From Myxococcota bacterium (lineage in GTDB: Bacteria > Myxococcota_A > Polyangia > Polyangiales > Houyiibacteriaceae), in assembly GCA_028284955.1 (NCBI GenBank), contig JANQQS010000086.1, forward strand, positions 1 through 43,404: DNA of 43,404 nucleotides, given 5' to 3'. The notes under the pieces are model-generated. The model saw nothing but the letters and a program-made list of their open reading frames with translations. It was not told the origin of the DNA and made no database searches. The position numbers and the translations under genes were made by a program. Of the stretch, positions 24,179-40,606 are shown one piece after another. How positions within the stretch are numbered: position 1 is the stretch's first letter; each line of letters opens with the position of its first letter.

Positions 24179-24424
24179 ATGTCACGATTCGAGCGACTAA
24201 ACATTCGCCACAGGTTTCTGCGTCTCGCGGCCGGGGTGCTTGCCCTGATGGTGCACGTGGGTTGTGCGGCGAGCGCGGGACCGAGCCCGCAGGATGGAGT
24301 TAAGGCAGCGGAAGAGACGGGAGGCCTCGATATTCTATCCGTTGATCTTGCGATGGATGTGGCAAGTCTGCTCGAGGTGATGCATGGATGCGACGACGGT
24401 CGTTGTCCTCCGTCGGTTGCCTAG
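24179..24424 (+). CDS. small lipoprotein, unknown function
   Basis: An 81-residue protein from ATG 24179 (the frame extends upstream to 24131). Signal RFLRLAAGVLALMVHVGC gives lipobox HVGC; the mature part is about 52 residues, acidic, with a Cys pair near the end (HGCDDGRCPPSVA). Its TAG stop overlaps the TAG stop of the oppositely oriented permease gene in a shared CTAG. No family seen; supported by the signal peptide and unbroken frame. Confidence 0.5.
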   Translation: MSRFERLNIRHRFLRLAAGVLALMVHVGCAASAGPSPQDGVKAAEETGGLDILSVDLAMDVASLLEVMHGCDDGRCPPSVA

Positions 24425-25266
24425 CCCTTAAGAGCTCCGCTCGTAAATCCAGCAATGAAGTCGCGTTGGAAGAAGAGGAAGAGGAGCAACACGGGGAGGA
24501 CTCCGATGGTTGTTCCTGCCATGACGAGAGCGTAGTCGTGATGGTAGAGGCCACGAAAGTGGCTGATCGCTACGGAGAGCGGGGTTTTCTGGGGATCTTG
24601 AAGGACGACTTGCGGAAAGACGAAGCTATTCCAGACGCTGAGATAGCTTACCATGAGGTAGGCGCCGACTGTCGGACGCAGTACGGGGAGGGCGATGGCG
24701 AAAAAACACCGCACTTCGCTACAACCGTCGAGCCGAGCTTGCTGCAAGAGCTCCTCCGGGACCGACGAGAGCATCGAGCTCCGAAAAAGGTAGACACCAA
24801 AAGCCGACGCAATGGCCGGCAGAATGATGCCGGCGAAGCTGTCTAGAAGATGGAGATGGTAGAGAAGCAAGTAGCTTGGCGCCAAGGTGAGTGAAGCGGG
24901 AACGAAGAGCGCAGTCCAGAGCGCAGCATCGATCATTCTTCGGCCGCGCATGTTCTGCTTTGCAAGTACATACCCCGCGGCCGCGCAGACCACAGTGGAG
25001 GCTGTGCTGGCCGACGACGCAAGAAAAACCGAGTTGAGCAAATGCCAAAGGAAGCCGTGTTCGAACAGTGTGCTTTGGAAGTGGTCGAGCGTAAGGCGCT
25101 GCCAAGCGATCCCCAGAAAACCGTCGCCGCGAGGCAAGAACAGGACAGCGTAGGTGTCCTCTCTTCGTCGCAACGCAGCGGCAAATAGGTATAGTAGCGG
25201 GACCATGGAAACAAGCGACGCGGTGATCAACACCCCATGCGAAAGCCAACGCGCGCGCGATTTCAT
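24421..25266 (-). CDS. sugar ABC importer permease (MalG/UgpE-type)
   Basis: A 281-residue membrane protein with about six transmembrane segments, from GVLITASLVSMVPLLYLFAA near the N-terminus to TTIGVLPVLLLFLFF near the end. The cytoplasmic EAA loop is present as EELLQQARLDGCSEVRCFFA and IALPVLRP, the coupling site for the ATPase. It starts in an ATGA overlap with the end of the first permease gene and is the last gene of the operon. Typical carbohydrate uptake (CUT1) inner permease; the substrate is not identifiable. Confidence 0.92.
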   Translation of the reverse strand: MKSRARWLSHGVLITASLVSMVPLLYLFAAALRRREDTYAVLFLPRGDGFLGIAWQRLTLDHFQSTLFEHGFLWHLLNSVFLASSASTASTVVCAAAGYVLAKQNMRGRRMIDAALWTALFVPASLTLAPSYLLLYHLHLLDSFAGIILPAIASAFGVYLFRSSMLSSVPEELLQQARLDGCSEVRCFFAIALPVLRPTVGAYLMVSYLSVWNSFVFPQVVLQDPQKTPLSVAISHFRGLYHHDYALVMAGTTIGVLPVLLLFLFFQRDFIAGFTSGALKG

Positions 25267-26225
25267 GAAGAGGCGTCCATGGACCCTACCGCCCGGACTG
25301 GGCGGATCGAGGTCGTGCGTCGGTGGCTTATTCTACTGACGTTGAGCGACAGGCGGATGGCGGCAATTGTGGCGGCCACAATCCCGGCGACGATCCAGCC
25401 CAAAGCGCCCGCGTAGCCCAAGTCGCCCGTCTCGAACCCGAGCTGGTACAGGTAGTACACCAAGGTAAGCGCGCGCTGCTCAGAGCCCCCGCCCGGATGC
25501 ATGATGTAGGCGAGGTCGAAGATTTGCAGCGCGTGGGTGAGCGAGATGATGGTCAGAAAAACCGCTACGCGGTCGATGGCTGGCCACGTGACATGTCGAA
25601 AACGCTGCCAAGCGCCAGCGCCGTCGAGGGCTGCCGCGTCTTCAAGGTCGCGCCGGCGGGATTGCAGAGCTGCGAGTAGGAAAACAAAGAAGAAGCCAGT
25701 GTTCATCCAAAAGTGAGCAGCGATCAGTGTGGTCATCACATAGCGCTCGAGCCACGGGAATTCGAGATTGAAACCCCACAGGTGGTGCAACGAGACATTG
25801 AGCAGACCCGCATGAGGCTCGAAGATTGTTCCGAAGATCACCGCGACAAACGCAGAGCCCACCAGGGTAGGTGAGAAGATCATCAGCTTCCACAGAGTGC
25901 GCCCTCGGATGCTTGGCTGGTCGGCGAGGTATGCGAGCCATAGAGCGAGCGGCACCTGCAGTAAGGCCAGCCCTGTGAACGAGAGCGTGTTGCGGGCGCT
26001 AAGCCAAAACACCGGGTCTCGGAGAAGACTAACGAAGTTGTCGAACCCGACGAAGTATTGTTGCTCAGGGCCCCAGCTGCGGTGCAGCGCGAGCCAAAAA
26101 GAGTAGAGCAGCGGGATGACGGTGAAGAGAACAAAGAGCATCAGAAAGGGCATCAGCAGCATTGCGCTCGGTGTGCGCCACAAGAGCCATGGGGCTCGCG
26201 ACCACTTCATCTGCTTGTTGTTCAT
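25263..26225 (-). CDS. sugar ABC importer permease (MalF/UgpA-type)
   Basis: A 320-residue membrane protein from ATG 26225 (MNNKQMKW), the start being set by a 4-base ATGA overlap with the stop of the binding-protein gene. Segments include FLMLFVLFTVIPLLYSFWLA at the N-terminus; the EAA loop reads LEDAAALDGAGAWQRFRHVT followed by WPAIDRV. It forms the heterodimeric channel with the MalG-type permease and overlaps that gene by ATGA as well. The frame remains open upstream of 26225, but that part overlaps the binding-protein gene and is not protein-like. Confidence 0.92.
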   Translation of the reverse strand: MNNKQMKWSRAPWLLWRTPSAMLLMPFLMLFVLFTVIPLLYSFWLALHRSWGPEQQYFVGFDNFVSLLRDPVFWLSARNTLSFTGLALLQVPLALWLAYLADQPSIRGRTLWKLMIFSPTLVGSAFVAVIFGTIFEPHAGLLNVSLHHLWGFNLEFPWLERYVMTTLIAAHFWMNTGFFFVFLLAALQSRRRDLEDAAALDGAGAWQRFRHVTWPAIDRVAVFLTIISLTHALQIFDLAYIMHPGGGSEQRALTLVYYLYQLGFETGDLGYAGALGWIVAGIVAATIAAIRLSLNVSRISHRRTTSIRPVRAVGSMDASS

Positions 26226-27628
26226 GGTTGCCGCTCGGTACGCCACGCTTGGCGCCTTTCGATTTCGGCGAGACGCGCTTGTGCTGCGGCTAGGAGGCGC
26301 GTCGCTTTGTTCCTCAATACTGACGTCATGCAGCGTTCCTCCGTGGGCTGCATCGCACGAAGCTTCATCAGCGTGTTGAGCAGCTCTTGCACAGCGAGGG
26401 AGCGCAACGGCGACAATACACGGCGTGGGACCTGGTTCATCACGTCGATAAACGCTGTGCCGATCGCTTGGCCAGAAAAGTAGGCGTCGGGCTGGTGATA
26501 GAACGCTTCGCGCCAGTAGTCGCGGACCGGGCTGATGATGCCGCTCAGAGCGTAGGTGCGCCGGGCGCCGGTTTTGGATAGATAGAGGCGCTTCGAAGTT
26601 TCCCACGCGGCGTCCGGCCGCTGCGTTTTCTTGCTGATGGCCATCGCGGTAGATCCCCAGGTGCTTGTGCGCAGGCCTCCGCGTCGCCATGCGGGCAGCG
26701 GCATCAGACGGAACTTGCCTCGTAGCTGGGGCATATTGAGTTTCCAGACGCCGGTCATCCAATCCGGCATCAGCGCTGCCAAGACTACACCGCGTTCGAA
26801 GAGGCGTGCGGCAGGTCCGCTGTCAGAGCCGATCGACGTGATGAAGCGTTCGTTGCTGGCGGTCCAGCATGTCAGCTTGGTGAGCACCTCTGCATTGATC
26901 TCGCGGTCCACGCGGAGTGTGCCGTCAGAGTCAAAAGCGCCTCCACCGGCCTGCTGGATCAACGAATGAACTTCCTCTGCGCTCCCTCGTAAATCCAGCT
27001 TCATCAAGTAGCGGGGATAGTTGCCTTGATCCGTAGGGGCGCCCATAAGCCGTTTGCGGAGCGCGGCAAAGTCATCCCACGTGTGGATCTTGTTGATGTC
27101 GACGCGATGTTTCTGGAAGATATCGTGGCGGTAGGCGAGCAGTACTGGATGGGCGTCGTGGGGAAGGGCATACACTCCGGAGCCACGCGTGTAGGCGTCG
27201 AGTGACGCTTGATGAATGCGGTTCATCCACCCTTCGCGTTCCAGACGTTCGCGCAGGTCAAGCAAGCCGATAGACGAGGGTGGTCCGGATAGGGCGTGCC
27301 CCGCAGAAGGCATGGGCATTTCGAACAAATCAGGTAGGACCGTATTGGCCCTGAGTCCGGAGTGGATACGTTGCTGCAGGGCCTCGTAGGCGAAGAGTCG
27401 GATGGCCAGCGAACCTGGTGCATCTTGTCGAACGAGTTCGTCGTGGACGTTTTTGTGTGTACGGGCGAAGGTCCATAGCTCTACGGATGAGGAGGTCCGA
27501 GCCGACGTGTGTGTGTAGATCGCGGCGCTGGACCCCGCCGCGCAGAGCACCAGCAACCACCCGGCCGGCGGCAGCGCGTGCATCCACATCGGCGTCGATC
27601 GATGCGGGAGGCCGGACCATCGCGTCAT
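26222..27628 (-). CDS. extracellular solute-binding protein, sugar ABC family
   Basis: A 468-residue protein from ATG 27628 (AGGA about 10 bases upstream). It has an N-terminal membrane anchor or signal (PPAGWLLVLCAAGSSAAIY) without a clear lipobox, then the family-1 binding-protein fold: VELWTFARTHKNVHDELV, YALPHDAHPVLLAYRHDIFQ ('LP.......LYYRKDLF'), a hinge region, and AWRRGGLRTSTWGSTAMAIS, then KKTQRPDAAWETSKRL. The C-terminus is longer and more basic than usual. It donates sugar to the adjacent permeases. Lack of a lipobox suggests an inner-membrane anchor by its N-terminal helix. Confidence 0.88.
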   Translation of the reverse strand: MTRWSGLPHRSTPMWMHALPPAGWLLVLCAAGSSAAIYTHTSARTSSSVELWTFARTHKNVHDELVRQDAPGSLAIRLFAYEALQQRIHSGLRANTVLPDLFEMPMPSAGHALSGPPSSIGLLDLRERLEREGWMNRIHQASLDAYTRGSGVYALPHDAHPVLLAYRHDIFQKHRVDINKIHTWDDFAALRKRLMGAPTDQGNYPRYLMKLDLRGSAEEVHSLIQQAGGGAFDSDGTLRVDREINAEVLTKLTCWTASNERFITSIGSDSGPAARLFERGVVLAALMPDWMTGVWKLNMPQLRGKFRLMPLPAWRRGGLRTSTWGSTAMAISKKTQRPDAAWETSKRLYLSKTGARRTYALSGIISPVRDYWREAFYHQPDAYFSGQAIGTAFIDVMNQVPRRVLSPLRSLAVQELLNTLMKLRAMQPTEERCMTSVLRNKATRLLAAAQARLAEIERRQAWRTERQP

Positions 27629-27656
27629 GTTCGTTCTTCCTTAATCAACTCTCCCG

Positions 27657-28805
27657 CTACTGATCGAGGTGTCGCAGGTTGCGTCCATACTCGCCCCGTT
27701 CGAAGTAGTGCAGCTGCGTTGTGTCGATGGTGAGCAGGATTTCGTTTTGCTGCGTTCTTGGCGTTAGGGATTGTGGTAGTCGGGCGATGAACGGTATGTC
27801 GTCCCCGACATGACCACATAGGTCAACGTGGCTGCCCAAGGGTTCACAAACATCTAACGTGAACGAGACCGACGCAGACTCATACGCACGATGGTCTGCA
27901 GCTTGTTTGTCTAGGTCATCCGCTATTGTCGTCACTGTTTCTGCTCGAACACCCACCACCAATTCGGTGTCGCGCCTAGCCTGAAGCACAGGGTGGTCTT
28001 GTTGTGGAAGGCGTAGCTCGAATCCGGGGCGAACTAGATACAGTTGGCCAGCTTTTTCGATGAGCCGACCTTCGATCAAGTTCATGGCTGGTGTTCCCAG
28101 AAAGGATGCCACAAAGCGGTTGGCAGGGTTGTGGTAGAGCTCCATCGGAGCGGCAAATTGCATCAGCACGCCTTGCGACAACACGGCGACGCGGTCGCCC
28201 ATAGTCATGGCTTCTTCTTGGTCGTGGGTCACGATGACACTGGTCACGCCAAGGCGGCGCTGCACACGTCGAAGCTCGATGCGGGCACTTTTCCGGCGTG
28301 CTGGATCGAGGTTCGACAACGGTTCGTCGAAAAGAAATACCGAAGGCGCGCGCACCATGGCGCGACCGAGGGCGACGCGTTGCTGCTCGCCCCCCGAGAG
28401 CTCCCGAGGGTAACGTTGCAGCAAATGGGCGATGCCAAGTGAACTCGCCACGTTGGTGATTCTCGTCGCGATGTCTTCTATGCGATGGCATCGCAACCTG
28501 AGGGCGAAGGCCATATTGTCGAACACGCTCATGTGCGGATAGAGGGCGTAGTTCTGAAACACCATCGCGACGTCTCGATCCTTGGGCGCCACGTCGTTCA
28601 TTTCGCGGTCGCCAATGTGGATCGTTCCCTCGGTCGCGTGTTCGAGCCCGGCAATCAATCGCAGCGTAGTGCTTTTGCCGCATCCAGACGGACCCAGCAA
28701 CGCCACAAACTCACCGTCTCGGATTTCGAGGCTCAGACCCGCGAGAGCGAATTCCGAACGATTCTCGTAACGCTTGGTGAGGGACGTGAGCGTAATCGCG
28801 GCCAT
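27657..28805 (-). CDS. ABC importer ATPase (MalK/UgpC-type)
   Basis: A 382-residue protein from ATG 28805 (AAITLTSLTKRYENRSEFAL). All ATPase motifs are intact: Walker A GPSGCGKST, Q-loop VFQNYALYPH, signature LSGGEQQRVALGRA, Walker B VFLFDEPLSNLD, H-loop VTHDQEEAMTMGDRV. The C-terminal OB-type regulatory domain (about 240-382) ends LLTIDTTQLHYFERG, as in MalK/UgpC/MsmX. A frame extends upstream of 28805 but is not conserved-looking. Placed between the unknown membrane protein and the binding protein in the same operon; gaps are 28 and 77 bases. Confidence 0.94.
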   Translation of the reverse strand: MAAITLTSLTKRYENRSEFALAGLSLEIRDGEFVALLGPSGCGKSTTLRLIAGLEHATEGTIHIGDREMNDVAPKDRDVAMVFQNYALYPHMSVFDNMAFALRLRCHRIEDIATRITNVASSLGIAHLLQRYPRELSGGEQQRVALGRAMVRAPSVFLFDEPLSNLDPARRKSARIELRRVQRRLGVTSVIVTHDQEEAMTMGDRVAVLSQGVLMQFAAPMELYHNPANRFVASFLGTPAMNLIEGRLIEKAGQLYLVRPGFELRLPQQDHPVLQARRDTELVVGVRAETVTTIADDLDKQAADHRAYESASVSFTLDVCEPLGSHVDLCGHVGDDIPFIARLPQSLTPRTQQNEILLTIDTTQLHYFERGEYGRNLRHLDQ

Positions 28806-28882
28806 GCATGCTTTTCCAGAGCAACGCTGGACGTTGCCATGCAAGGCCCGGAAGCGCAAAGGTGGGGGCGCTGTCGATTTCG

Positions 28883-30022
28883 CTAACGACTCGTTGAATG
28901 ATCGAAGAGAGGATGATGAAGTCTCGCCGCTTCCATGAGTTTGTGTTCGGCGTCGACGAGTTTGCGCGCTGCGGTTGCGGTGGGGTCCCACGCGACGAGG
29001 CCGTCGATTCCTGCTTTCGCGAGGGCTTCGAAAGCTCCTTCCAGAATCATTTGGGACAGCCACTTGCGGTCGACGGAGCGCCATAGAGCTTCGTTGGCGC
29101 CGCCAGGTCCTGGGGTGGCAATCGCGTCTCGTACGACGCTTTTTCGTTTTTGGTCCACGGCGCTCAGTTTTTCCCATTCGACTGAGTCGAGCTCGCGGCG
29201 CGCGCGTTCCCGGTCTCCGCTGAGCAACGCCTGCCATGCTTTGAGCACTTGCCGGCGATGTTTCGCGACATCCAACTGGGCGAGGTTCCGCACACTCGCG
29301 GCGAGGTGGTCCGCGGCTTCTTTGGGTCGCTCTTGACGAACTGCGCAACAGGCTCGCGCACCGTCGATGAGGAGTAGTTGAACGGCGGTGAGTGTGTGAC
29401 CAATCGTCTCGCGCTGCTCTTCGGGAATGGGGTCCTGAATGAAGCGCGCAAAGCTATCGGTATCGACGGCGGGCAAGGGCTTGAATCGACGCAAGTCTTC
29501 TTCGATGAGTTCGCAGTAGCCACCGAGCGAGTAGGCGTACGCCCGGGTGGCCACGACCAGCCCGCGTAGCCGGCGGTTGACGCGCTCGATGGATAGACGC
29601 TCGGCTTCGTACATCAGCACGTACTCGGGCAGGCTATGGCCTGGGTTTGAGCTTTGCGCGACCATGGCCAGCGTGGTGAAAAATCGATCGTGAACCGCGT
29701 CGATATCCGCCGCGCCGAGCGCCGGCAGCACGGCCTTTGATGGATCGGAAGGGGATTTCACCTCAAGCAGTTCGTTGGCCAAACGTTGGGCCTCAGCAGC
29801 GCTATCGATCGATGCTTCCACGCGACGTCCGAACTTGCGGCCTTCTCGGGCGAGGCGTTCGCGGAGCGCGACGTGGAAACGCACGGATGGACGTCGCAAG
29901 CGCTGCTCCAGTCGGTCCCGGTTCGGCGCCTGGAAATCCTCCGGCAGGAGGTAAGTAAGGAGAATAAACCCGCCGGAGAGGAACATCACGGCGATGACCA
30001 CGAAGAGGATTTTGCGAGGCAT
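28883..30022 (-). CDS. membrane-anchored protein of unknown function in the ABC operon
   Basis: A 379-residue protein with one N-terminal transmembrane helix (PRKILFVVIAVMFLSGGFIL followed by LTYLLP) and no other membrane segment. The rest is helical and charged (for example RLEQRLRRPSVRFHVALRER, LVVATRAYAYSLGGYCELIE, LLSGDRERARRELDSVEWEK), with tetratricopeptide-like helix pairs in the middle, although no clear TPR signature. It lies between the winged-helix regulator and the ATPase gene on the same strand (11 bases after the regulator). Its position suggests a sensor or accessory factor of the transporter; no family recognised. Confidence 0.7.
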   Translation of the reverse strand: MPRKILFVVIAVMFLSGGFILLTYLLPEDFQAPNRDRLEQRLRRPSVRFHVALRERLAREGRKFGRRVEASIDSAAEAQRLANELLEVKSPSDPSKAVLPALGAADIDAVHDRFFTTLAMVAQSSNPGHSLPEYVLMYEAERLSIERVNRRLRGLVVATRAYAYSLGGYCELIEEDLRRFKPLPAVDTDSFARFIQDPIPEEQRETIGHTLTAVQLLLIDGARACCAVRQERPKEAADHLAASVRNLAQLDVAKHRRQVLKAWQALLSGDRERARRELDSVEWEKLSAVDQKRKSVVRDAIATPGPGGANEALWRSVDRKWLSQMILEGAFEALAKAGIDGLVAWDPTATAARKLVDAEHKLMEAARLHHPLFDHSTSR

Positions 30023-30032
30023 GGATGTTGAC

Positions 30033-30371
30033 CTATTCGGACAACTCTTCCATCGTACCGCCTAGGGCGGACATGAGTTGTCCAATCGTGCAGTGACGCT
30101 CTAGGGGATGGCGTAAGGGTTGGCACACGTTCACGAGGTAGCGGTTGCGTCTTCCGTGGCGTTCCCGAGTCAGTATCTCGACTTCTTCGAGTTCGCTGAG
30201 AATGCGCTGCACCGCGCGCTGAGTAATGCCCACCTTCGCCGCAATGTCGCGCACCCGAGCGTCGGGGTCGCGCACGATGCAGAGAAGAACGTGGGCGTGG
30301 TTGCTGAGAAACGTCCAGCGGTGCGCGGCCGTTTCGGCATCCGAGATGTTCTCGCTTGAAGGCTCACTCAT
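30033..30371 (-). CDS. winged-helix transcriptional regulator (ArsR/MarR-like)
   Basis: A 112-residue protein with a helix-turn-helix at about 30-80: HVLLCIVRDPDARVRDIAAK, VGITQRAVQRILSELEEVEI and LTRERHGRRNRYLVN, where RHGRRNRY is the wing. The 'F..NHAHVLL.I...P.AR.RD.A..VGITERA.QRI...LE..GYL.R.R.GRRN.Y' pattern is a known small-regulator family. It is the first gene of the sugar ABC operon and is divergent from the exporter operon; a palindrome in the shared gap is its likely operator. Confidence 0.82.
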   Translation of the reverse strand: MSEPSSENISDAETAAHRWTFLSNHAHVLLCIVRDPDARVRDIAAKVGITQRAVQRILSELEEVEILTRERHGRRNRYLVNVCQPLRHPLERHCTIGQLMSALGGTMEELSE

Positions 30372-30476: not shown

Positions 30477-32555
30477 ATGACCGCTGAAATCGCTGAAGAT
30501 ACTGGCCCCCAGGGCATTCTTGAACGCGCCCACGAGCTGCTCGGGGTACCCATGTCGTGGCGCCCGCCGCGGTCGGGCGAGCCAGAAAAACCGGATCTCG
30601 AGACGATTGCCGCGGTAGCTCGAGAGGGAGGATTGCGCACCAACCGTTTTGCCGCGCCTCCGCTTGCGGTGCTCCAGTCGCTTTCCCCGCGGCGACCCGT
30701 GGTCACGTTGGATGAGCATGGCTTCCCGCTGTTGCTGCTTGAGGAGCGCGGCGGACGGTTTTGTGTCGAGGACGGCGCGGGAGCTCGCTCCTGGCTGACG
30801 GTGGCGATGGTGGTGGAGCGATTGGGACTCGCGCATGGCGGGGTGGAGCACACGTGGCTCGCGCTCGATTCGCCTGCGTCGCTTAGCGTACCGCTTACCG
30901 ACGATTCGACGCCGTGGCAGAACGCCATCGCGCTGATTCGCAGCGAGGGTAGCAACCTCGGCTCGATCGTGATCTACGCGATTGGCGTGGGTTTGCTGTC
31001 GCTTGCGCTCCCGCTCGCCGTGCAGATGCTCGTCAACACGGTGGCGTTTGGCCAGCTCATCCAGCCCATACTCGTCCTTACTGTGTTGCTCGCCGGCGGG
31101 TTGATTTTTGCCGCCACGCTCCGCGCCATTCAGGCATGGATGGTCGAAATCGTGCAGCGCCGTCTGTTTGTGAAGTTGGTTTCTGAACTCGCGGACCGTT
31201 TGCCGCGCGCCCACGTCGAAGCGTTCGAAAAAGGCCAGGGGCCCGAACTCGTGAACCGATTTTTCGACGTGTTCACCGCGCAAAAAACGGTTGCACAGCT
31301 CCTCCTCGGAGGAATCGAGGCGCTGCTGACGGCGCTGGTCGGCTTGGTCGTGCTCGCCTTCTATCACCCGGCGTTGTTTGGTTTCGGACTAGTACTGACA
31401 GCGAGCGCGTTGGTGGTGTTCGTCACCCTCGGACGAGGAGCCACCAGCACAACGATCGCCGAATCGAAAGCGAAGTATGCGGTGGCGGGCTGGCTCGAAG
31501 AGATGGCGCGCCATCTTTTCGCGCTCAAGATGGCGGGCGGCGGAGACTATGCGCGACGTCGTCTCGACGCGCTGGCGACCCAGTGGCTCGATACCCGGTC
31601 GGCTCATTTTCGCGTCTACTACCGCCAGTTCATGGGTGCGCTGGCGCTGCAGGTGATCGCCCACGCCACGCTCCTTGGCTTGGGCGGCTGGTTGGTGGTT
31701 GAGCGAGAGCTCACGATCGGCCAACTGGTGGCCGCAGAGCTGATCGTAACCGCGGTGGTTGCGTCTCTGAGCAAGCTCGGCGGCAAGTTGGAGTCGGTGT
31801 ACGACCTGGTGGCCGCGGCCGACAAGCTCGGGGTATTGCTCGGCTTGCCTTTGGAGCAGCAGGGGGGAGACGACCCGATTTGTGGCGGCCGCGCAGCTCG
31901 CGTGGAGCTCCGAGAGGTGAGCTCAGCGGGTGGTGAGTTGAAAGATTTTGATTTGGTGATCGAGGCGGGGGCCCGGGTCGCGATCCACGGGGACCGCCAC
32001 GCATCGACAGCCCTTGTCGACCTGCTGTTTGGCTTGCGGCTGCCGAAACGCGGAGCGGTGATGATCGACGGTCAGGACCTGCGCGACGTGCGCCTCGATG
32101 CACTGCGTTCGCGTATCGCCGTCGTGCGCGAGCGCGAAGTCTTACCAGGCACGGTGGCGGACAATATTCGCTCGGTGGGGCGACACGTGCCTGCTTCCGA
32201 AATATGGGAGACGCTTGCCCAAGCGCGCCTCGCTGGCGCGGTGCGCAATCTTCCCCGAGGGCTGCAAACGGAGCTGATGCCGTCAGGCGCCCCGCTTGAC
32301 CGGTTGGACGCATTGCGCCTGACTTTGGCGCGCGCCATTGCGGCTCGTCCGGCATTGCTGGTGCTCGATGGCGTGATCGATGCGTTGCCCGAGGAAGAGC
32401 GCGGGCCTCTTCTGGAGACGATCAACCGCAACCGAACCTTGGTGGTCCTGACCCACGAGCAGGCCGTGGTCAACGACTGCGGTTCGTGCATCGAACTCGA
32501 GCCCAACGATACGCGGACCTCGCCTCCGACGAGTCCTGAGGAGGTCACATCATGA
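30477..32555 (+). CDS. type I exporter-like ABC membrane protein with degenerate ATPase domain
   Basis: A 692-residue protein. N-terminal domain (about 1-145) resembles the C39-peptidase-like domain of type I exporters (PVVTLDEHGFPLLLLEERGG then RFCVEDG) but lacks the catalytic Cys motif. The transmembrane domain (about 155-440) has six-helix character, from LGSIVIYAIGVGLLSLALPL to LIVTAVVASLSKLGGKLESV. The C-terminal nucleotide-binding domain (about 470-692) keeps the fold order but lost key residues: the Walker A region reads IHGDRHAST (about 501-509, no GK[ST]), the signature region reads APLDRLDALRLTLARA (no LSGGQ), and Walker B reads LLVLDGVIDAL (Glu replaced by Gly). The H-loop His (LTHEQ) remains. 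It overlaps the HlyD-type gene by ATGA. Confidence 0.85.
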   Translation: MTAEIAEDTGPQGILERAHELLGVPMSWRPPRSGEPEKPDLETIAAVAREGGLRTNRFAAPPLAVLQSLSPRRPVVTLDEHGFPLLLLEERGGRFCVEDGAGARSWLTVAMVVERLGLAHGGVEHTWLALDSPASLSVPLTDDSTPWQNAIALIRSEGSNLGSIVIYAIGVGLLSLALPLAVQMLVNTVAFGQLIQPILVLTVLLAGGLIFAATLRAIQAWMVEIVQRRLFVKLVSELADRLPRAHVEAFEKGQGPELVNRFFDVFTAQKTVAQLLLGGIEALLTALVGLVVLAFYHPALFGFGLVLTASALVVFVTLGRGATSTTIAESKAKYAVAGWLEEMARHLFALKMAGGGDYARRRLDALATQWLDTRSAHFRVYYRQFMGALALQVIAHATLLGLGGWLVVERELTIGQLVAAELIVTAVVASLSKLGGKLESVYDLVAAADKLGVLLGLPLEQQGGDDPICGGRAARVELREVSSAGGELKDFDLVIEAGARVAIHGDRHASTALVDLLFGLRLPKRGAVMIDGQDLRDVRLDALRSRIAVVREREVLPGTVADNIRSVGRHVPASEIWETLAQARLAGAVRNLPRGLQTELMPSGAPLDRLDALRLTLARAIAARPALLVLDGVIDALPEEERGPLLETINRNRTLVVLTHEQAVVNDCGSCIELEPNDTRTSPPTSPEEVTS

Positions 32556-33952
32556 AGATTTTGAGCACGCTCGCAGGGTTTCGTTCGCAGAGCTGGGCGG
32601 AGGGGCGAAGTCTGCTGCCCGCGTCTCGACTCGTGCCCGAGCCGGTTCGCTCGCAGCGCGTGGCTCGGTGGCTCGCGATTTCGGTCGTCGCGTTTGTGGC
32701 CGTCGCCGCGCTCGCGCCGTGGCAGCAGAACATCGCCGGCAGCGGCCGAGTGATAGCGTTTGCGCCCAACGACCGGCCTCAGGCGTTGCAGGCGACCATT
32801 TCCGGTCGCGTGGTGCGCTGGCATATCGTGGAGGGCGCTCGGGTGTCGGAGGGCGATGTCCTCGTCGATCTGACGGACAATGACCCCGATCGCCTGGAGC
32901 GAATGACGCAGCAGCGGGATGCGACTCGCGCCCGGCTTGAAGCCTACCAGTCGCAAGTCATCGCCTACGAAGAGCGCTTGGCGGCGCTGCAGCGCTCGCA
33001 GGGCGCGCAGATCAGTGCTCAAGAGGCGGAGGTTCGGGTAGCTCGAGAGTCGCTGCAGGCGAAGCGCGAACTCCTCATCGCAGCCGATGCCAAAATGGCG
33101 ACTGCGCGCATCCAACAAGAACGAATCGAAGGGCTCACCAAAGACGGCTTGGCTTCCCAGCGCGACCAGGAATTGGCGCTGCTGAGCGCAACCAGTTCGA
33201 CCGCGAGCCTCGCGTCGGCCAAGGCTGGGGTTCGGGGGGCCGAGAGCTCGCTTCAGACCAAACGCGCGGCGCTAGAGCGAGTACGCGCGTCGACCGAAGC
33301 AGATCTCCGTTCGGCGACCGCCTCGCTCCGTTCGGCAGAAACCCAAGTCGCGAGCGCCCAGGCCGCGCTGGCGGACACCGAGTCTCGGCTCGCCCAGCAA
33401 AAGGCCCAGGTCGTCCGGGCGCCGCGAGACGGCATGGTGCAGCGCATTATGGTTCAGCAGGGAGGAGTGCAGGTTTCGCGCGGTCAGACGCTTGCCTACC
33501 TCGTGCCCAACACCGAATCACGCGCGGTGGAAGTCTACGTCGACGGCAACGATGCGGCGCTGATCACCCCTGGACGTCATGTGCGCCTGCAGTTCGAAGG
33601 ATGGCCCGCGCTGCAGTTTTCGGGTTGGCCGAGCGTCGCGGTGGGAACCTTTGGGGGTACGGTCGCGTTCGTCGACCCTAGCGACGACGGACGAGGCGAT
33701 TTCCGTATCGTGATCCTGCCCGACCGCGATGACGAAGAATGGCCCGACACCCGTTTTCTCCGTCAGGGCACGCGCGCCAAGGGATGGGTGCTGCTCGATG
33801 AGGTTCGGGTTGGTTTTGAGATTTGGCGACAACTCAACGGGTTCCCGCCATCGTTCCGCAGCGCACCAACCCAAAAAGACGACGGCACTGGAGCGAAGTT
33901 CGAGGAGTCGAAAGCCGAGGAAGAGTCTGGAAAAGATGGTGCGGTCAAATGA
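32552..33952 (+). CDS. HlyD-family membrane fusion protein
   Basis: A 466-residue protein starting in an ATGA overlap with the ABC gene. One N-terminal transmembrane helix (LAISVVAFVAVAALAPW at about 42-58), then the biotinyl-lipoyl half GSGRVIAFAPNDRPQALQAT with ISGRVVRWHIVEGARVSEGD, a long coiled coil (about 110-300, rich in Ala/Gln/Glu/Arg heptads), the second lipoyl half VVRAPRDGMVQRIMVQQGGV then QVSRGQTLAYLV, and a beta-barrel domain. It bridges inner membrane protein and outer channel in tripartite export. The acidic/Lys tail (KFEESKAEEESGKDGAVK) is extra. It overlaps the TolC-type gene by ATGA. Confidence 0.93.
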   Translation: MKILSTLAGFRSQSWAEGRSLLPASRLVPEPVRSQRVARWLAISVVAFVAVAALAPWQQNIAGSGRVIAFAPNDRPQALQATISGRVVRWHIVEGARVSEGDVLVDLTDNDPDRLERMTQQRDATRARLEAYQSQVIAYEERLAALQRSQGAQISAQEAEVRVARESLQAKRELLIAADAKMATARIQQERIEGLTKDGLASQRDQELALLSATSSTASLASAKAGVRGAESSLQTKRAALERVRASTEADLRSATASLRSAETQVASAQAALADTESRLAQQKAQVVRAPRDGMVQRIMVQQGGVQVSRGQTLAYLVPNTESRAVEVYVDGNDAALITPGRHVRLQFEGWPALQFSGWPSVAVGTFGGTVAFVDPSDDGRGDFRIVILPDRDDEEWPDTRFLRQGTRAKGWVLLDEVRVGFEIWRQLNGFPPSFRSAPTQKDDGTGAKFEESKAEEESGKDGAVK

Positions 33953-35400
33953 GGCGCGCAGCGTCTCCCATGTTCGTTGCGGCTGCGCTTTTGTGTTCGT
34001 GGACCGCGATCGGCCGCGCGCAATCGATATCCCTTCGCGACGTTTTGGCCTCGGTAGAGCGGCATCATCCCAAGATTTCCGCCGCTCTTGCCAAAGAGGA
34101 TATGGCGCACGCCAAGCTGTTCGCCGCGCGAGGTGGCTTCGATCCCAAACTCAGTGCGTACGGCGCGCTCCGCACGGGAGGGTACTACGAGCTGCGCCGG
34201 GCGACGGTGGAGTTGCGTCAGCCGACGCCGCTGTGGGGCGCAGAGGTTTGGGCGGGGTACCGTTTTGGCCAGGGCATCGACGACGAGCAGCGATTTCCTA
34301 CCTACTATGAAGATGAAACCCTCGATACCGGTGAGGTGAACGCGGGGCTCCGGGTGCCGCTCTGGCGCGACGGGCCTCAGGATGAGCGCCGGGCGGCGCG
34401 AACGCGGAACGGTCATTTCGTGACGGCGGCGACCGAAGCGCGCGAGGCGACCGTGCTCGAACTGCAGCGCAAGGCCACCGATGCGTATCTCGCTTGGGTG
34501 GCGGCGGGCCGGCGGCTGGCCGTGGCGGAAGAGCTGCTCAAGTTGGCGGAAGACCGGCAGGCGTGGGTCGATGCTCGCGTGAAGGCGGGTGCGATTGCGC
34601 GCGTGGAATCGCTCGAAGTCGAGCGCTCGGTACTCAAACGAAAACTCACGCTCGTATCGGCCCGGCGCGGAACCGAAGCCACGAGCTATGTCTTGTCGCT
34701 ATTCTATCGCGACGAACGCGGGGTTCCCTCGACGCTGGGGGCGGCGGCGCTTCCGGAGAAGCTGTCTTTTCCCGCGGCGCCCAAAGAGACTCCGGAAAAA
34801 GCCTTTCGCCAGGTCGTCGATTGCCATCCCCTGCTCGTCGAGCAGCGCGCAGCATTGGCCGCCTCGGAAGTCGACCAAGATCTCGCCCGCGCAAGAAGGG
34901 CGCCGCAAGTCGACGTGCAGGGGCAAGTATCGCGAGACTTTGGTGAAGGTGACGTGACCCTGCCCGGCACGGTGTTCGAAGCGGGTCTCGTATTTTCTCT
35001 GCCTTTGCCGATGCGCAAAGCGCGCGGCGACCTGCGAGCCGCGAACGCGAATGTGGAAGCGACCCGGCAGTCGCTTCGCTTTCGTGAAGATCAGCTGCGC
35101 ATGCAACTGGATGACGCCGCCTCCGCATTCACCGCCGCAGATTCGCGTCGCCGCCTCGCGACGGACATGATTCGCAACACGCGCGACCTCGCCGATGCCG
35201 AACGTCGCCGCTTCGAAGCCGGCGTGACGACTCTCTTCGTCGTCAATCTACGCGAGCAATCTCTCGCCGAAGCGGAAGTCGCCGAAGTCGACGCGGTACG
35301 AGACCAGTGGAAAGCAAGGGCGCAGTGGGATGCGCTAACGACCTGCAACCCGGATGATCTTGTCGGAGTGGCGCGTCAAGCGAACGCGTCTGGTCGTTGA
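33949..35400 (+). CDS. TolC-family outer-membrane channel
   Basis: A 483-residue protein starting at ATG 33949, an ATGA overlap with the HlyD-type stop. Signal peptide RRAASPMFVAAALLCSWTAI then GRAQ. Mature part starts SISLRDVLASVERHHPKISA ('L.EAL..A...NP.L'), the usual TolC repeat start, with two helical hairpin halves (for example ELQRKATDAYLAWVAAGRRL, later AANANVEATRQSLRFREDQL, and SAFTAADSRRRLATDMIRNT). It closes a three-gene export operon. Followed by a 14-base repeat (35418-35459) with no gene. The frame is open upstream of 33949 but that part overlaps the HlyD-type gene. Confidence 0.93.
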   Translation: MRRAASPMFVAAALLCSWTAIGRAQSISLRDVLASVERHHPKISAALAKEDMAHAKLFAARGGFDPKLSAYGALRTGGYYELRRATVELRQPTPLWGAEVWAGYRFGQGIDDEQRFPTYYEDETLDTGEVNAGLRVPLWRDGPQDERRAARTRNGHFVTAATEAREATVLELQRKATDAYLAWVAAGRRLAVAEELLKLAEDRQAWVDARVKAGAIARVESLEVERSVLKRKLTLVSARRGTEATSYVLSLFYRDERGVPSTLGAAALPEKLSFPAAPKETPEKAFRQVVDCHPLLVEQRAALAASEVDQDLARARRAPQVDVQGQVSRDFGEGDVTLPGTVFEAGLVFSLPLPMRKARGDLRAANANVEATRQSLRFREDQLRMQLDDAASAFTAADSRRRLATDMIRNTRDLADAERRRFEAGVTTLFVVNLREQSLAEAEVAEVDAVRDQWKARAQWDALTTCNPDDLVGVARQANASGR

Positions 35401-37829: not shown

Positions 37830-39209
37830 TCAAAGTGAAATCAAGCCTGCTGGTTTCGAGAGCTCTGACGCGATGATCTCGAGTCCGCGTTCGAGCTCGG
37901 CTCGGGTTCGAACTGCGCCGAGGCAAAGTCTCAGGGCGTTGGGGGCGGTTTTGTGGTCCGCGGCGAAGGTTTCGGGAGGCAGGAGTCGCACGCCGCGTTC
38001 GGCGGATCGTGCGATGAGGCGATGCGCAGAGATAGACGGCGGAAGCTCGAGCCATAGATGATAGCTGCATGAGCCGCGCAGGGTTCCCGGCAGCGTTCCG
38101 AGAATGCGGCGCGCGATGCGATGGCGGGCTTTGGCCTCGTTTCGCTTTGCGCGCACGGTATTCATCGCTACGCCGCGTTCCCACCAGCGCGCAAAGATTT
38201 CGGCATTTAGCGCTGAGGTAGAAAACATGGTGGCGTTCAAACCAGTGAGAAGCCGCGCGTGTTCGGGGCCGGCGAGAAAGCCGAGCCGCAGCCCTCCGGC
38301 GACCACTTTGGATACCGAGCTGATGAAAAACGAGTGGCTGGGGCAGAGCGTGTAGAACGCAGGGGGCGGGCGCGGTACGAGCAGGCGGTGGATTTCGTCT
38401 TCGAGGATCCAAAAATCATGGTCCATCGCGAGTTCCGCAATGCGTCGTTTACGGCTCGCGGGCATGGTCACGGTGGTGGGGTTTTGCAGCGTGGGTACGC
38501 AGTAGAGCGCGCGAGGGCGATGTTTGCGGCAGCGCGCGGCGAGCGCATCCGGGTCAATCCCTTCTTCGTCCATGGGAATCGATTGAACGGTGATGCCGAG
38601 CATAGCCGCCACGGCGAGCACGCCCGGATACGTAAGCTCGCCGACGAATAGAGTGTCGCCTGACGACAGCATGCTCGATAGAACGGTGGCGATTCCATGC
38701 TGCGCGCCGGCCGTGACGATCACGTCGTCGCGGTCAACGTTGACTCCTTGCGCCTCGATCCATGCTGCACCTACGGATCGGTGCTCCGGCCAACCGGCGG
38801 TGGGCGCGTAGTGGAGAAGCTTCTGAATTTCATGTTGGCCGCTCGGCTGGTTTGCGATTGATTGGAGTGCCGGAGCGAGCGGGGGGTCGAGCGCGGTGGG
38901 AGGGTAGTTGCCTCCGAGATCGATTTCGGTGTGTCCCGTCGCATCGGGAGACACCAGCGACGAAAGCGATGTGTCTCCATCGTCGCTTCCCACAAACGTG
39001 CCTCGACGACCGTGCCCCGAGATGAGCCCTTTCTTTTCGAGTTCGGCGTAGGCGCGGGTCACTGTTCCGAGAGACACGCCGAGTTGGTCCGCGAGCTCGC
39101 GCTGCGGAGGAAGGCGCGCTCCAGAATGCAGCTTGCCGCTCGCGATGTTCGCCTCAAATCGCTTCGCGATGGCTTGATAGAGTTTGTGGCGCGGAGAGAG
39201 TTTTGTCAC
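37830..39209 (-). CDS. MocR-type regulator (GntR helix-turn-helix + aminotransferase fold)
   Basis: A 459-residue protein from GTG 39209. Residues about 5-75 are the GntR-type winged helix (PRHKLYQAIAKRFEANIASG then KLHSGARLPPQRELADQLGV and SLGTVTRAYAELEKKGLISG then HGRRGTFV). Residues about 95-450 are the fold type I aminotransferase domain, with NPTTVTMP, DHDFWILEDEIHR and the PLP-binding Lys301 in FISSVSKVVAGGLRLGFLAG. Such PdxR/MocR regulators sense PLP or amine/amino acid adducts. It is divergent from the PLP decarboxylase gene at 39260 across a 50-base gap with direct GTACAA repeats. Confidence 0.92.
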   Translation of the reverse strand: MTKLSPRHKLYQAIAKRFEANIASGKLHSGARLPPQRELADQLGVSLGTVTRAYAELEKKGLISGHGRRGTFVGSDDGDTSLSSLVSPDATGHTEIDLGGNYPPTALDPPLAPALQSIANQPSGQHEIQKLLHYAPTAGWPEHRSVGAAWIEAQGVNVDRDDVIVTAGAQHGIATVLSSMLSSGDTLFVGELTYPGVLAVAAMLGITVQSIPMDEEGIDPDALAARCRKHRPRALYCVPTLQNPTTVTMPASRKRRIAELAMDHDFWILEDEIHRLLVPRPPPAFYTLCPSHSFFISSVSKVVAGGLRLGFLAGPEHARLLTGLNATMFSTSALNAEIFARWWERGVAMNTVRAKRNEAKARHRIARRILGTLPGTLRGSCSYHLWLELPPSISAHRLIARSAERGVRLLPPETFAADHKTAPNALRLCLGAVRTRAELERGLEIIASELSKPAGLISL

Positions 39210-39211
39210 TG

Positions 39212-39240
39212 GTACAATAAATACATTGAACGTAGTACAA
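39212..39240. promoter_or_regulatory. MocR-type operator candidate, GTACAA direct repeats
   Basis: GTACAA at 39212-39217 and 39235-39240, in the same orientation and 23 bases apart, in the 50-base gap between the MocR-type regulator and the decarboxylase gene. Directly repeated half sites about two helical turns apart are known for MocR regulators such as PdxR and GabR; binding here is inferred. Confidence 0.6.
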
Positions 39241-39259
39241 AACGCTATATGGATCGCTC

Positions 39260-40606
39260 ATGGCGAATTCACAACTTCTGCGCGAAGCCTGCGCTCGATC
39301 GATCCGCTATCTCGAAGAGCTCCGCGAGCGGCGCGTATTTCCGGATGCATCGGCTCGCGACGCGCTCCGAGCGCTAGATACCCCGCTGCCCGAACGTCCC
39401 TCCGATCCCCACGAAGCGCTCAAGCTCCTGGACGAGATGGGCTCGCCAGCCACCGTGGCCACGGCGGGTTCGCGTTATTTCGGCTACGTCGTGGGTGGGT
39501 CGCTCGACGCATGCGTAGCGGCAAACTGGCTGACGACGGCCTGGGATCAAAACGCGTCGATGGTGAGCTTGTCTCCGGCGGCGTGCGCGATCGAAAAGGT
39601 GGCGGCCCGCTGGTTGCTCGATGTGTTGGGGCTGCCGAAAGACGCGCACTGTTCGTTTCAAACCGGCACCACGACGGCCCATATGACCGCGCTGGTGGCT
39701 GCGCGAAACGCGGTGCTTCGTCGCGTGGGCTGGGATGTGCGCGCGGACGGTTTGTCGGGTGCTCCCTCGATTCATATCGTGGTCGGGGGTGAGGCCCATC
39801 CGAGCCTGATGCGCGCGCTCGGGGTGGTCGGTTTTGGCGCGCGGCAGGTCACGTCGGTGCGCGTCGACGATCAGGGGCGCATGCTTCCTGAAGCCATATC
39901 CGAGTTTGGCGAACACCCGACCATCGTGTGCGCGCAGGTTGGCAATGTGAACACGGGAGCGAGCGATCCGATCGCCGCGATTCGCGACGCCGCGCCGGGC
40001 GCATGGTTGCACGTGGACGGAGCGTTTGGGCTCTGGGCGAACGCGTCTCCCCGCCGGCGGCATTTTACGAAAGGCATCGAACATGCTGATTCATGGGCGA
40101 CCGATGGCCACAAATGGCTCAACGTTCCCTACGATTCGGGCATCGCGATTGTTCGAGAAGGGGCTGCGGTGAAACACGCGCTTTCCATGAGCGCGGCATA
40201 TCTTACCGACGAACGAAGCGATCCCAAGGACTACACGCTCGAACTGTCGCGGCGCGCGCGCGGAATCGATGTCTGGATGGCGCTTCGCACCCTCGGACGC
40301 CAGGGCATCGCAGATTTGGTGGATCGCTGCTGCGACCTCGCGAAACGCTTTGCCGAACGACTCGGCGCTTTGGGTTATTCCGTGCTCAATGACGTTGTCC
40401 TGAATCAGGTGCTGGTTACGTTTGGTTCGGCCGAACAGACCCATCGCGTCATTGAAGCGTTGCAGTCCGATGGCGTGTGCTGGTGCGGTGGCACGGTGTG
40501 GCAGGGACAGGTGGCGATGCGCATCAGCGTGAGTTCGTGGGCCACGACGGTTGCCGATGTCGATCGATGCGTCGACACGATGGCTCGCATCGCTCGGCCA
40601 GACTAA
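39260..40606 (+). CDS. group II PLP-dependent amino acid decarboxylase
   Basis: A 448-residue protein. It has the fold type I decarboxylase signature: FGYVVGGSLDACVAANWLTT, FQTGTTTAHMTALVAARNAV, APGAWLHVDGAFGLWANASP, and the PLP-binding WATDGHKWLNVPYDSGI with Lys285. The C-terminal segment is small-domain like (SVLNDVVLNQVLVTFGSAEQ). It fits aromatic-L-amino-acid/glutamate-type decarboxylases or related aldolase-like pyridoxal enzymes. Divergent MocR regulator (37830-39209) suggests induction by its substrate. The substrate cannot be named from sequence alone. Confidence 0.85.
   Translation: MANSQLLREACARSIRYLEELRERRVFPDASARDALRALDTPLPERPSDPHEALKLLDEMGSPATVATAGSRYFGYVVGGSLDACVAANWLTTAWDQNASMVSLSPAACAIEKVAARWLLDVLGLPKDAHCSFQTGTTTAHMTALVAARNAVLRRVGWDVRADGLSGAPSIHIVVGGEAHPSLMRALGVVGFGARQVTSVRVDDQGRMLPEAISEFGEHPTIVCAQVGNVNTGASDPIAAIRDAAPGAWLHVDGAFGLWANASPRRRHFTKGIEHADSWATDGHKWLNVPYDSGIAIVREGAAVKHALSMSAAYLTDERSDPKDYTLELSRRARGIDVWMALRTLGRQGIADLVDRCCDLAKRFAERLGALGYSVLNDVVLNQVLVTFGSAEQTHRVIEALQSDGVCWCGGTVWQGQVAMRISVSSWATTVADVDRCVDTMARIARPD

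Follow-up and report, generated by a model that had tools for sequence, protein, structure and literature searches.

An ABC-type tripartite export operon that, like its kin, persists with no recognisably competent ATPase of its own

A three-gene export operon from a Myxococcota bacterium, together with its kin, persists although no ATPase encoded in cis is recognisably competent. The operon lies in the window, the stretch of 43,404 nucleotides analysed here (contig JANQQS010000086.1, assembly GCA_028284955.1). Sequence and predicted structure show that the nucleotide site of its only ABC subunit has been lost clade-wide, under purifying selection, and that relatives in the same operon have dropped the nucleotide-binding domain (NBD) wholly. 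These observations suggest a TolC-dependent tripartite conduit, in which a dimer of ABC-fold transmembrane domains (TMDs) works without relying on its own NBD to bind or hydrolyse ATP. We favour this reading at a probability of roughly 0.6; transport, substrate, and energy source are all inferred.

The operon and its products

The three genes all lie on the plus strand. The first (30477..32555) encodes an ABC-exporter-like half transporter of 692 residues, identified through gene call, Pfam, alignment, and predicted structure; the second (32552..33952), a HlyD-type periplasmic adaptor, or membrane fusion protein, of 466 residues (Pfam HlyD_3); and the third (33949..35400), a TolC-type outer-membrane channel of 483 residues (Pfam OEP). 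The first two genes share an ATGA overlap at 32552-32555, and the second and third share another at 33949-33952. The original prediction, made from sequence alone, had described three intact frames joined in this way, and both coordinates and Pfam matches bear it out. ABC protein, adaptor, and channel encoded together satisfy the gene-content criterion for type I secretion; efflux through the TolC-type channel is inferred from that content. A divergent gene for a MarR-like winged-helix protein (30033..30371, minus strand) occupies the same place in the window's own clade, and is likely the regulator of the operon.

The ABC protein comprises a C39-like domain (residues 1-140, approximately), a six-helix TMD (about 145-462), and a degenerate NBD (about 464-677). 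It passes the Pfam cut-offs only narrowly: ABC_membrane (PF00664) scores 32.2 bits, with a cut-off of 28; and ABC_tran (PF00005) scores 29.1 bits, with a cut-off of 25. Its top NCBIfam matches, NHLM ABC1/ABC2 and LssB, fall far under their cut-offs, and the curated type I permease/ATPase models are missed widely (LssB, 125 of 693 bits; HlyB, 115 of 726 bits).

The amino-terminal domain (30477..30899, plus strand) matches the fold of C39 peptidases, with a Z of 12.5 against both 7n87, the PCAT1 peptidase, and 3b79. The domain contains a single cysteine, C96; the catalytic cysteine expected near the amino terminus is absent. The PCAT criterion of a C39 fold is thus satisfied and that of the catalytic cysteine is not, as had been predicted.

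An NBD fold without its nucleotide site

Motif positions in the NBD (31866..32507, plus strand) were set by aligning the window's ABC protein with its relatives and with intact exporters. The Walker A region reads VAIHGDRHASTALVD. Within the former Walker A, IHGDRHAST (residues 503-511; 31983..32009, plus strand), both the lysine and the Ser/Thr are gone, and the loop has one residue fewer than that of GxxxxGKST members, so the GxxxxGK[ST] criterion fails. So too does the LSGGQ criterion: the signature position is occupied by APLDRLDALRL (residues 605-615; 32289..32321, plus strand). The former Walker B, ALLVLDGV (residues 626-633; 32352..32375, plus strand), retains Asp631, with Gly632 at the position of the catalytic glutamate. 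The Q-loop glutamine is replaced (VVRERE), and the A-loop aromatic is missing. The H-loop His660 is present; because most relatives are without it, this residue is an incidental leftover.

The predicted structure of the NBD is confident (pLDDT about 90-97). Residues 464-677 superpose on the ATP-bound TAP1 NBD (2ixf) with Z 25.5 and an rmsd of 1.6 Å over 212 residues, and exporter structures align across both TMD and NBD of the model (Z about 25). Superposition on 2ixf revealed no intact Walker A or signature hidden elsewhere in the NBD. The fold is therefore intact, and no alternative motif is concealed in the domain. Sequence and predicted structure together show a retained fold from which the nucleotide-contacting motifs have been lost. 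All sequence and structure tests made here support the inference that this subunit cannot hydrolyse ATP alone. (An anti-phage defence screen returned just a weak mad3 match, 19.2 bits over part of the NBD, which is uninformative.)

Most of the original prediction for this domain thus held. It had called the Walker A lysine and serine, the signature, and the Walker B glutamate lost, to which the A-loop aromatic and Q-loop glutamine are now added, and had judged the sole ABC subunit unable to hydrolyse ATP by itself. It had also called the fold and H-loop histidine retained, which is correct for the window, but the histidine is lost in most relatives. Neither of the outcomes named as refuting it, an intact motif elsewhere or a recent pseudogene, is found.

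Graded decay across a multi-phylum family

Relatives were detected in 82 of 379 Myxococcota genomes, 9 of 247 Acidobacteriota, 29 of 294 Planctomycetota, and 75 of 296 Bacteroidota; these counts rest on strict E-value cut-offs, and the candidates scored in each genome were capped in number. Plasmid records extend the family to Sphingomonadales, and to further Bacteroidota. The window's own operon matches Sandaracinus and other myxobacterial MAGs. Where the flanking sequence is long enough to tell, the order ABC-adaptor-TolC is kept at essentially every family locus, in Myxococcota, Planctomycetota, Acidobacteriota, Bacteroidota, and Sphingomonadales alike. Comparison of flanks identified no conserved neighbour that might be a cognate substrate or accessory gene, apart from the divergently transcribed regulator of the window's clade; the stop-to-stop clustering used for flanking ORFs suffered from noise, since high-GC DNA abounds in antisense ORFs. 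Neighbouring genes in Bacteroidota varied. A TetR-type regulator adjoins one Bacteroidota member.

Decay of the NBD is graded. Among 121 members with a readable NBD, pattern-based and hence approximate counts find the Walker A lysine in 97; the Walker B glutamate in about 35; the H-loop histidine in about 22; and an SxGQ-like signature in about 20. The A-loop aromatic is lost in 18 of the 24 rows without the Walker A lysine, versus 12 of the 97 rows with it. Near-canonical motifs occur in one Acidobacteriota group; elsewhere the signature and Q-loop are lost nearly everywhere, an intact LSGGQ surviving in one Myxococcota member (L074). Both Walker motifs are gone from two Sphingomonads, Novosphingobium aromaticivorans DSM 12444 (SARO_RS19820, in the operon SARO_RS19820-19810) and Sphingobium (WP_169574853.1). 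Most members do keep Walker A, so ATP binding may retain a role in branches that have lost neither the P-loop nor the NBD.

On a tree built from the TMD only, the P-loop-less clade comprises 17 rows, the window included, and is nested inside the family. Seventeen rows in one such clade make chance loss of the motif untenable. The Walker B aspartate is the sole nucleotide-site residue still common to all members of the window's clade. The state of the Walker A lysine changes about nine times on this tree among NBD-bearing rows; at least seven changes of the lysine-minus group are forced by starred branches.

Could the locus simply be a decaying pseudogene, or a dispensable one under relaxed selection? 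In its favour, the NBD evolves faster than the TMD. Against it, open frames and operon order are conserved across phyla, and the identical loss is common to several genera. In the window's clade, dN/dS is about 0.13-0.36 for the NBD and 0.03-0.19 for the TMD, giving an NBD/TMD ratio of 1.2-5.6, versus 0.65-1.06 in four canonical pairs (dS was near saturation in several pairs). These values place the NBD under purifying selection, yet weaker than that on the TMD, the reverse of canonical exporters. This alternative is all but excluded, and a recent pseudogene in particular is rejected by the motifs of relatives, the P-loop-less clade, and dN/dS. Loss of ATPase motifs is a property of a multi-phylum family rather than of one local pseudogene. 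The expectations that selection maintains the operon, and that orthologues could reveal whether degenerate motifs and gene order are conserved, have thus been met: the motifs are degenerate to graded extents, and the order is nearly always kept.

Relatives without the domain

Some members have no NBD at all. In 17 sampled Bacteroidota loci, a TMD-only protein of 334-374 residues is followed directly by the adaptor gene; the nine proteins checked extend only 6-11 residues beyond their TMD match, ending where TMD gives way to NBD. In three Myxococcota (G127, G204, and G143), the TMD is fused in frame to the adaptor through linkers of roughly 20-30 residues, although the G143 fusion is truncated by a contig end. 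Complete loss occurred about three times on the tree, at least two of these being forced by starred branches; one row (L158) sits on a long branch. HlyB-HlyD complexes may hold equal numbers of ABC and adaptor chains; if they are so built, the natural fusion would fit this stoichiometry, which remains no more than a possibility.

Was the missing domain moved rather than deleted? The surroundings of the NBD-less operons hold no NBD gene. A search of 14 genomes with such operons turned up no family NBD at another site: the top hit, at 32% identity and 99 bits, lies within ordinary half transporters, against 210 bits for a true family NBD in a control genome. A split NBD gene relocated elsewhere was thus not detected in these genomes, and deletion is the likeliest account.

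These relatives also bear on a heterodimeric alternative, in which an intact half transporter, encoded at another locus, would partner the degenerate subunit. Degenerate sites are indeed common in heterodimeric exporters (PMC7756269), and the window genome carries other half transporters and many ABC ATPases. However, no intact ABC partner gene is found inside the operon in any lineage examined, which does not exclude a partner elsewhere. Genome G131 (95% complete) has the module, yet shows only one other PF00664 protein, which is generic and intact; this protein also occurs in the congeners G013 and G178, which have no detected module. The search for co-occurring half transporters that the original prediction had proposed thus yields, in G131, nothing specific to module genomes. 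Moreover, what heterodimers lack is one of two working sites rather than a whole NBD, and pairing with an NBD-less member would leave a single NBD. Heterodimerization is therefore unlikely. The original prediction had left three options: a partner ATPase, another energy source, or a non-transport role. Complete absence of the NBD in relatives favours independence from ATPase activity over a cognate partner.

The transmembrane domain is the constrained part

Residues invariant across the family in the TMD (30909..31862, plus strand) are, by alignment, E224, N260-R-F-F-D264, Q269-K270, S330, K333-Y334, G338-W339-L-E-E-M343, R374, K433, and K450. The motifs NRFFD...QK (260-270) and S330 with KYxVAGWLEEM (330-343) are common to members across phyla, and most TMD motifs are at least 90% conserved in NBD-less members too, in which the linker residue E460 is relaxed. 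Inferred from helix boundaries in the model, the invariant residues gather next to the coupling helices, where TM2-TM5 end on the cytoplasmic side; K433 and K450 fall in TM6.

A stand-alone ATPase might dock on this domain in trans, as shared ATPases do for some importers. Stand-alone NBD proteins are present in these genomes, and conserved cytoplasmic helices persist in family TMDs even without the NBD. Against such docking, no NBD gene adjoins NBD-less operons, and no family-like NBD was found elsewhere in those genomes. The segments of the coupling helices, onto which an NBD would be expected to dock, also rank with the most variable of the TMD (a comparison made without a canonical control), and the folded NBD of window-clade members would block the docking site. 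This explanation is unlikely. Nevertheless, a trans-acting NBD stays possible, given the many other ABC ATPases of the window genome.

Alternatively, the ABC-like subunit may no longer transport. It might instead be a scaffold or gated plug, holding the adaptor and channel in place to serve another pump or to export from the periplasm to the outside. Loss of energy coupling and the TMD-adaptor fusions in three Myxococcota speak for this role. However, the TMD is the most constrained domain, beyond the needs of an anchor, and most of its invariant residues fall where an intracellular gate would be expected. We consider a scaffold unlikely as well.

A proposed mechanism

In the favoured model, the ATPase-independent conduit, the TMD, adaptor, and channel would still move substrate. 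The NBD of the window's clade may be a structural cap or a remnant that holds the dimer together, and would be dispensable. Gating and energy would come from the TMD, most plausibly by way of an ion gradient; alternatively, a substrate gradient might suffice through a gated conduit. The candidate gate is the cluster of invariant charged residues where TM2-TM5 reach the cytoplasm. The MarR-like regulator, together with the TetR-type regulator beside one Bacteroidota member, hints at small-molecule efflux; a single cognate protein is the less likely substrate, and the small molecule may be toxic or lipophilic.

The nearest experimental precedent is MsbA without its NBD, for which proton-coupled drug transport has been reported, as it was earlier for LmrA (PMC4979069). 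Proton coupling by MsbA and LmrA rests on truncated constructs, and is not the majority view of ABC transport. Searches of the open-access literature found no experimental study of any family member.

Relation to known systems

The operon resembles type I secretion systems (HlyB-HlyD-TolC, LssB, and PCAT/NHLM-type) in its three-gene order, exporter fold, HlyD-type adaptor, TolC-type channel, and C39-like domain. Unlike them, its ABC subunit has lost the ATPase motifs; no substrate gene was found alongside; and some relatives lack the NBD or have TMD and adaptor fused. Like EmrAB-TolC, it may combine a non-ATPase inner-membrane transporter with a HlyD-type adaptor, TolC, and a MarR-type regulator nearby, but its inner-membrane protein has the ABC exporter fold rather than that of the MFS, and proton coupling is only inferred. 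MsbA-MD and LmrA-MD (PMC4979069) are likewise ABC exporter TMDs without an NBD, and were reported to be proton-coupled; those constructs are artificial truncations of intact ATPases, whereas the NBD-less form of this family is natural and recurrent. Finally, TM287/288, TAP, and TmrAB, among the closest folds in structure comparison, also have degenerate motifs within a kept NBD fold, but retain one working site; here the operon's only ABC subunit is degenerate.

One published operon deserves mention. HlyBD2-OMP2 of Blastomonas fulva was annotated computationally as a HlyB-HlyD-OMP operon and compared with Novosphingobium aromaticivorans (PMC9505733), a species with a family member; we take HlyBD2 to be a probable member itself, listed there as an ordinary HlyB-type pump. 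The parts of type I secretion and tripartite efflux are already known, as are degenerate sites in heterodimers (PMC7756269). What appears to be new is the repeated loss, in a sole ABC subunit, of the nucleotide site and even of the whole NBD. The open-access literature searched holds no description of such a family; subscription papers were not covered.

Implications

Near-canonical exporters, motif-less NBDs, NBD-less TMDs, and TMD-adaptor fusions all survive in the same operon. Many genes annotated "ABC transporter ATP-binding protein" probably do not encode ATPases. These natural proteins also make a debated question testable: is an ABC exporter TMD useful without ATP, and if so, what drives it?

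A bolder reading, which could as readily prove wrong as right, is that ABC exporters have given rise, in nature, to a class of transporters that are secondary-active or gated, comprising TMD, adaptor, and TolC without any ATPase, with the NBD degenerating along many lineages and removed outright from some. If so, TolC-dependent tripartite systems would gain another energisation class, in addition to RND, MFS, and ABC. ATP-independence, if demonstrated, would merit a class of its own. The general definition of ABC transporters rests on the ATPase; this family suggests that evolution can free an ABC-type pump from having to consume ATP itself.

One member of the family, the multi-phylum relatives of the window's ABC subunit, retains intact Walker A, LSGGQ and Walker B motifs (locus L074, 961-3141); in the graded series of motif decay it stands close to the canonical extreme. 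Other members differ in domain makeup: in three Myxococcota loci (L156, L157 and L158), the HlyD-type adaptor is naturally fused directly to an ABC exporter transmembrane domain (TMD), and one Bacteroidota genome (G1340) encodes at least two separate TMD-only members, in open frames of 340 and 334 aa. On a Sphingobium plasmid (L217, 1362-5664), a DUF2309 gene lies immediately upstream of the family operon.

Elsewhere in the window are intact-looking genes for a sugar-type ABC importer (24421-29348, minus strand), comprising an SBP_bac_1 binding protein, two BPD_transp permeases and a MalK-like ATPase, and a divergent pair encoding a GntR-aminotransferase (MocR-type) regulator and a PLP-dependent decarboxylase (37830-40606).

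The window also encodes a 379-aa protein without a Pfam match (28883-30022, minus strand). A homologue in a related locus (L007, 6395-7552, minus strand) adjoins the same MarR-like regulator, a divergent winged-helix gene. The 379-aa protein therefore may belong to the exporter-like module in part of the clade.
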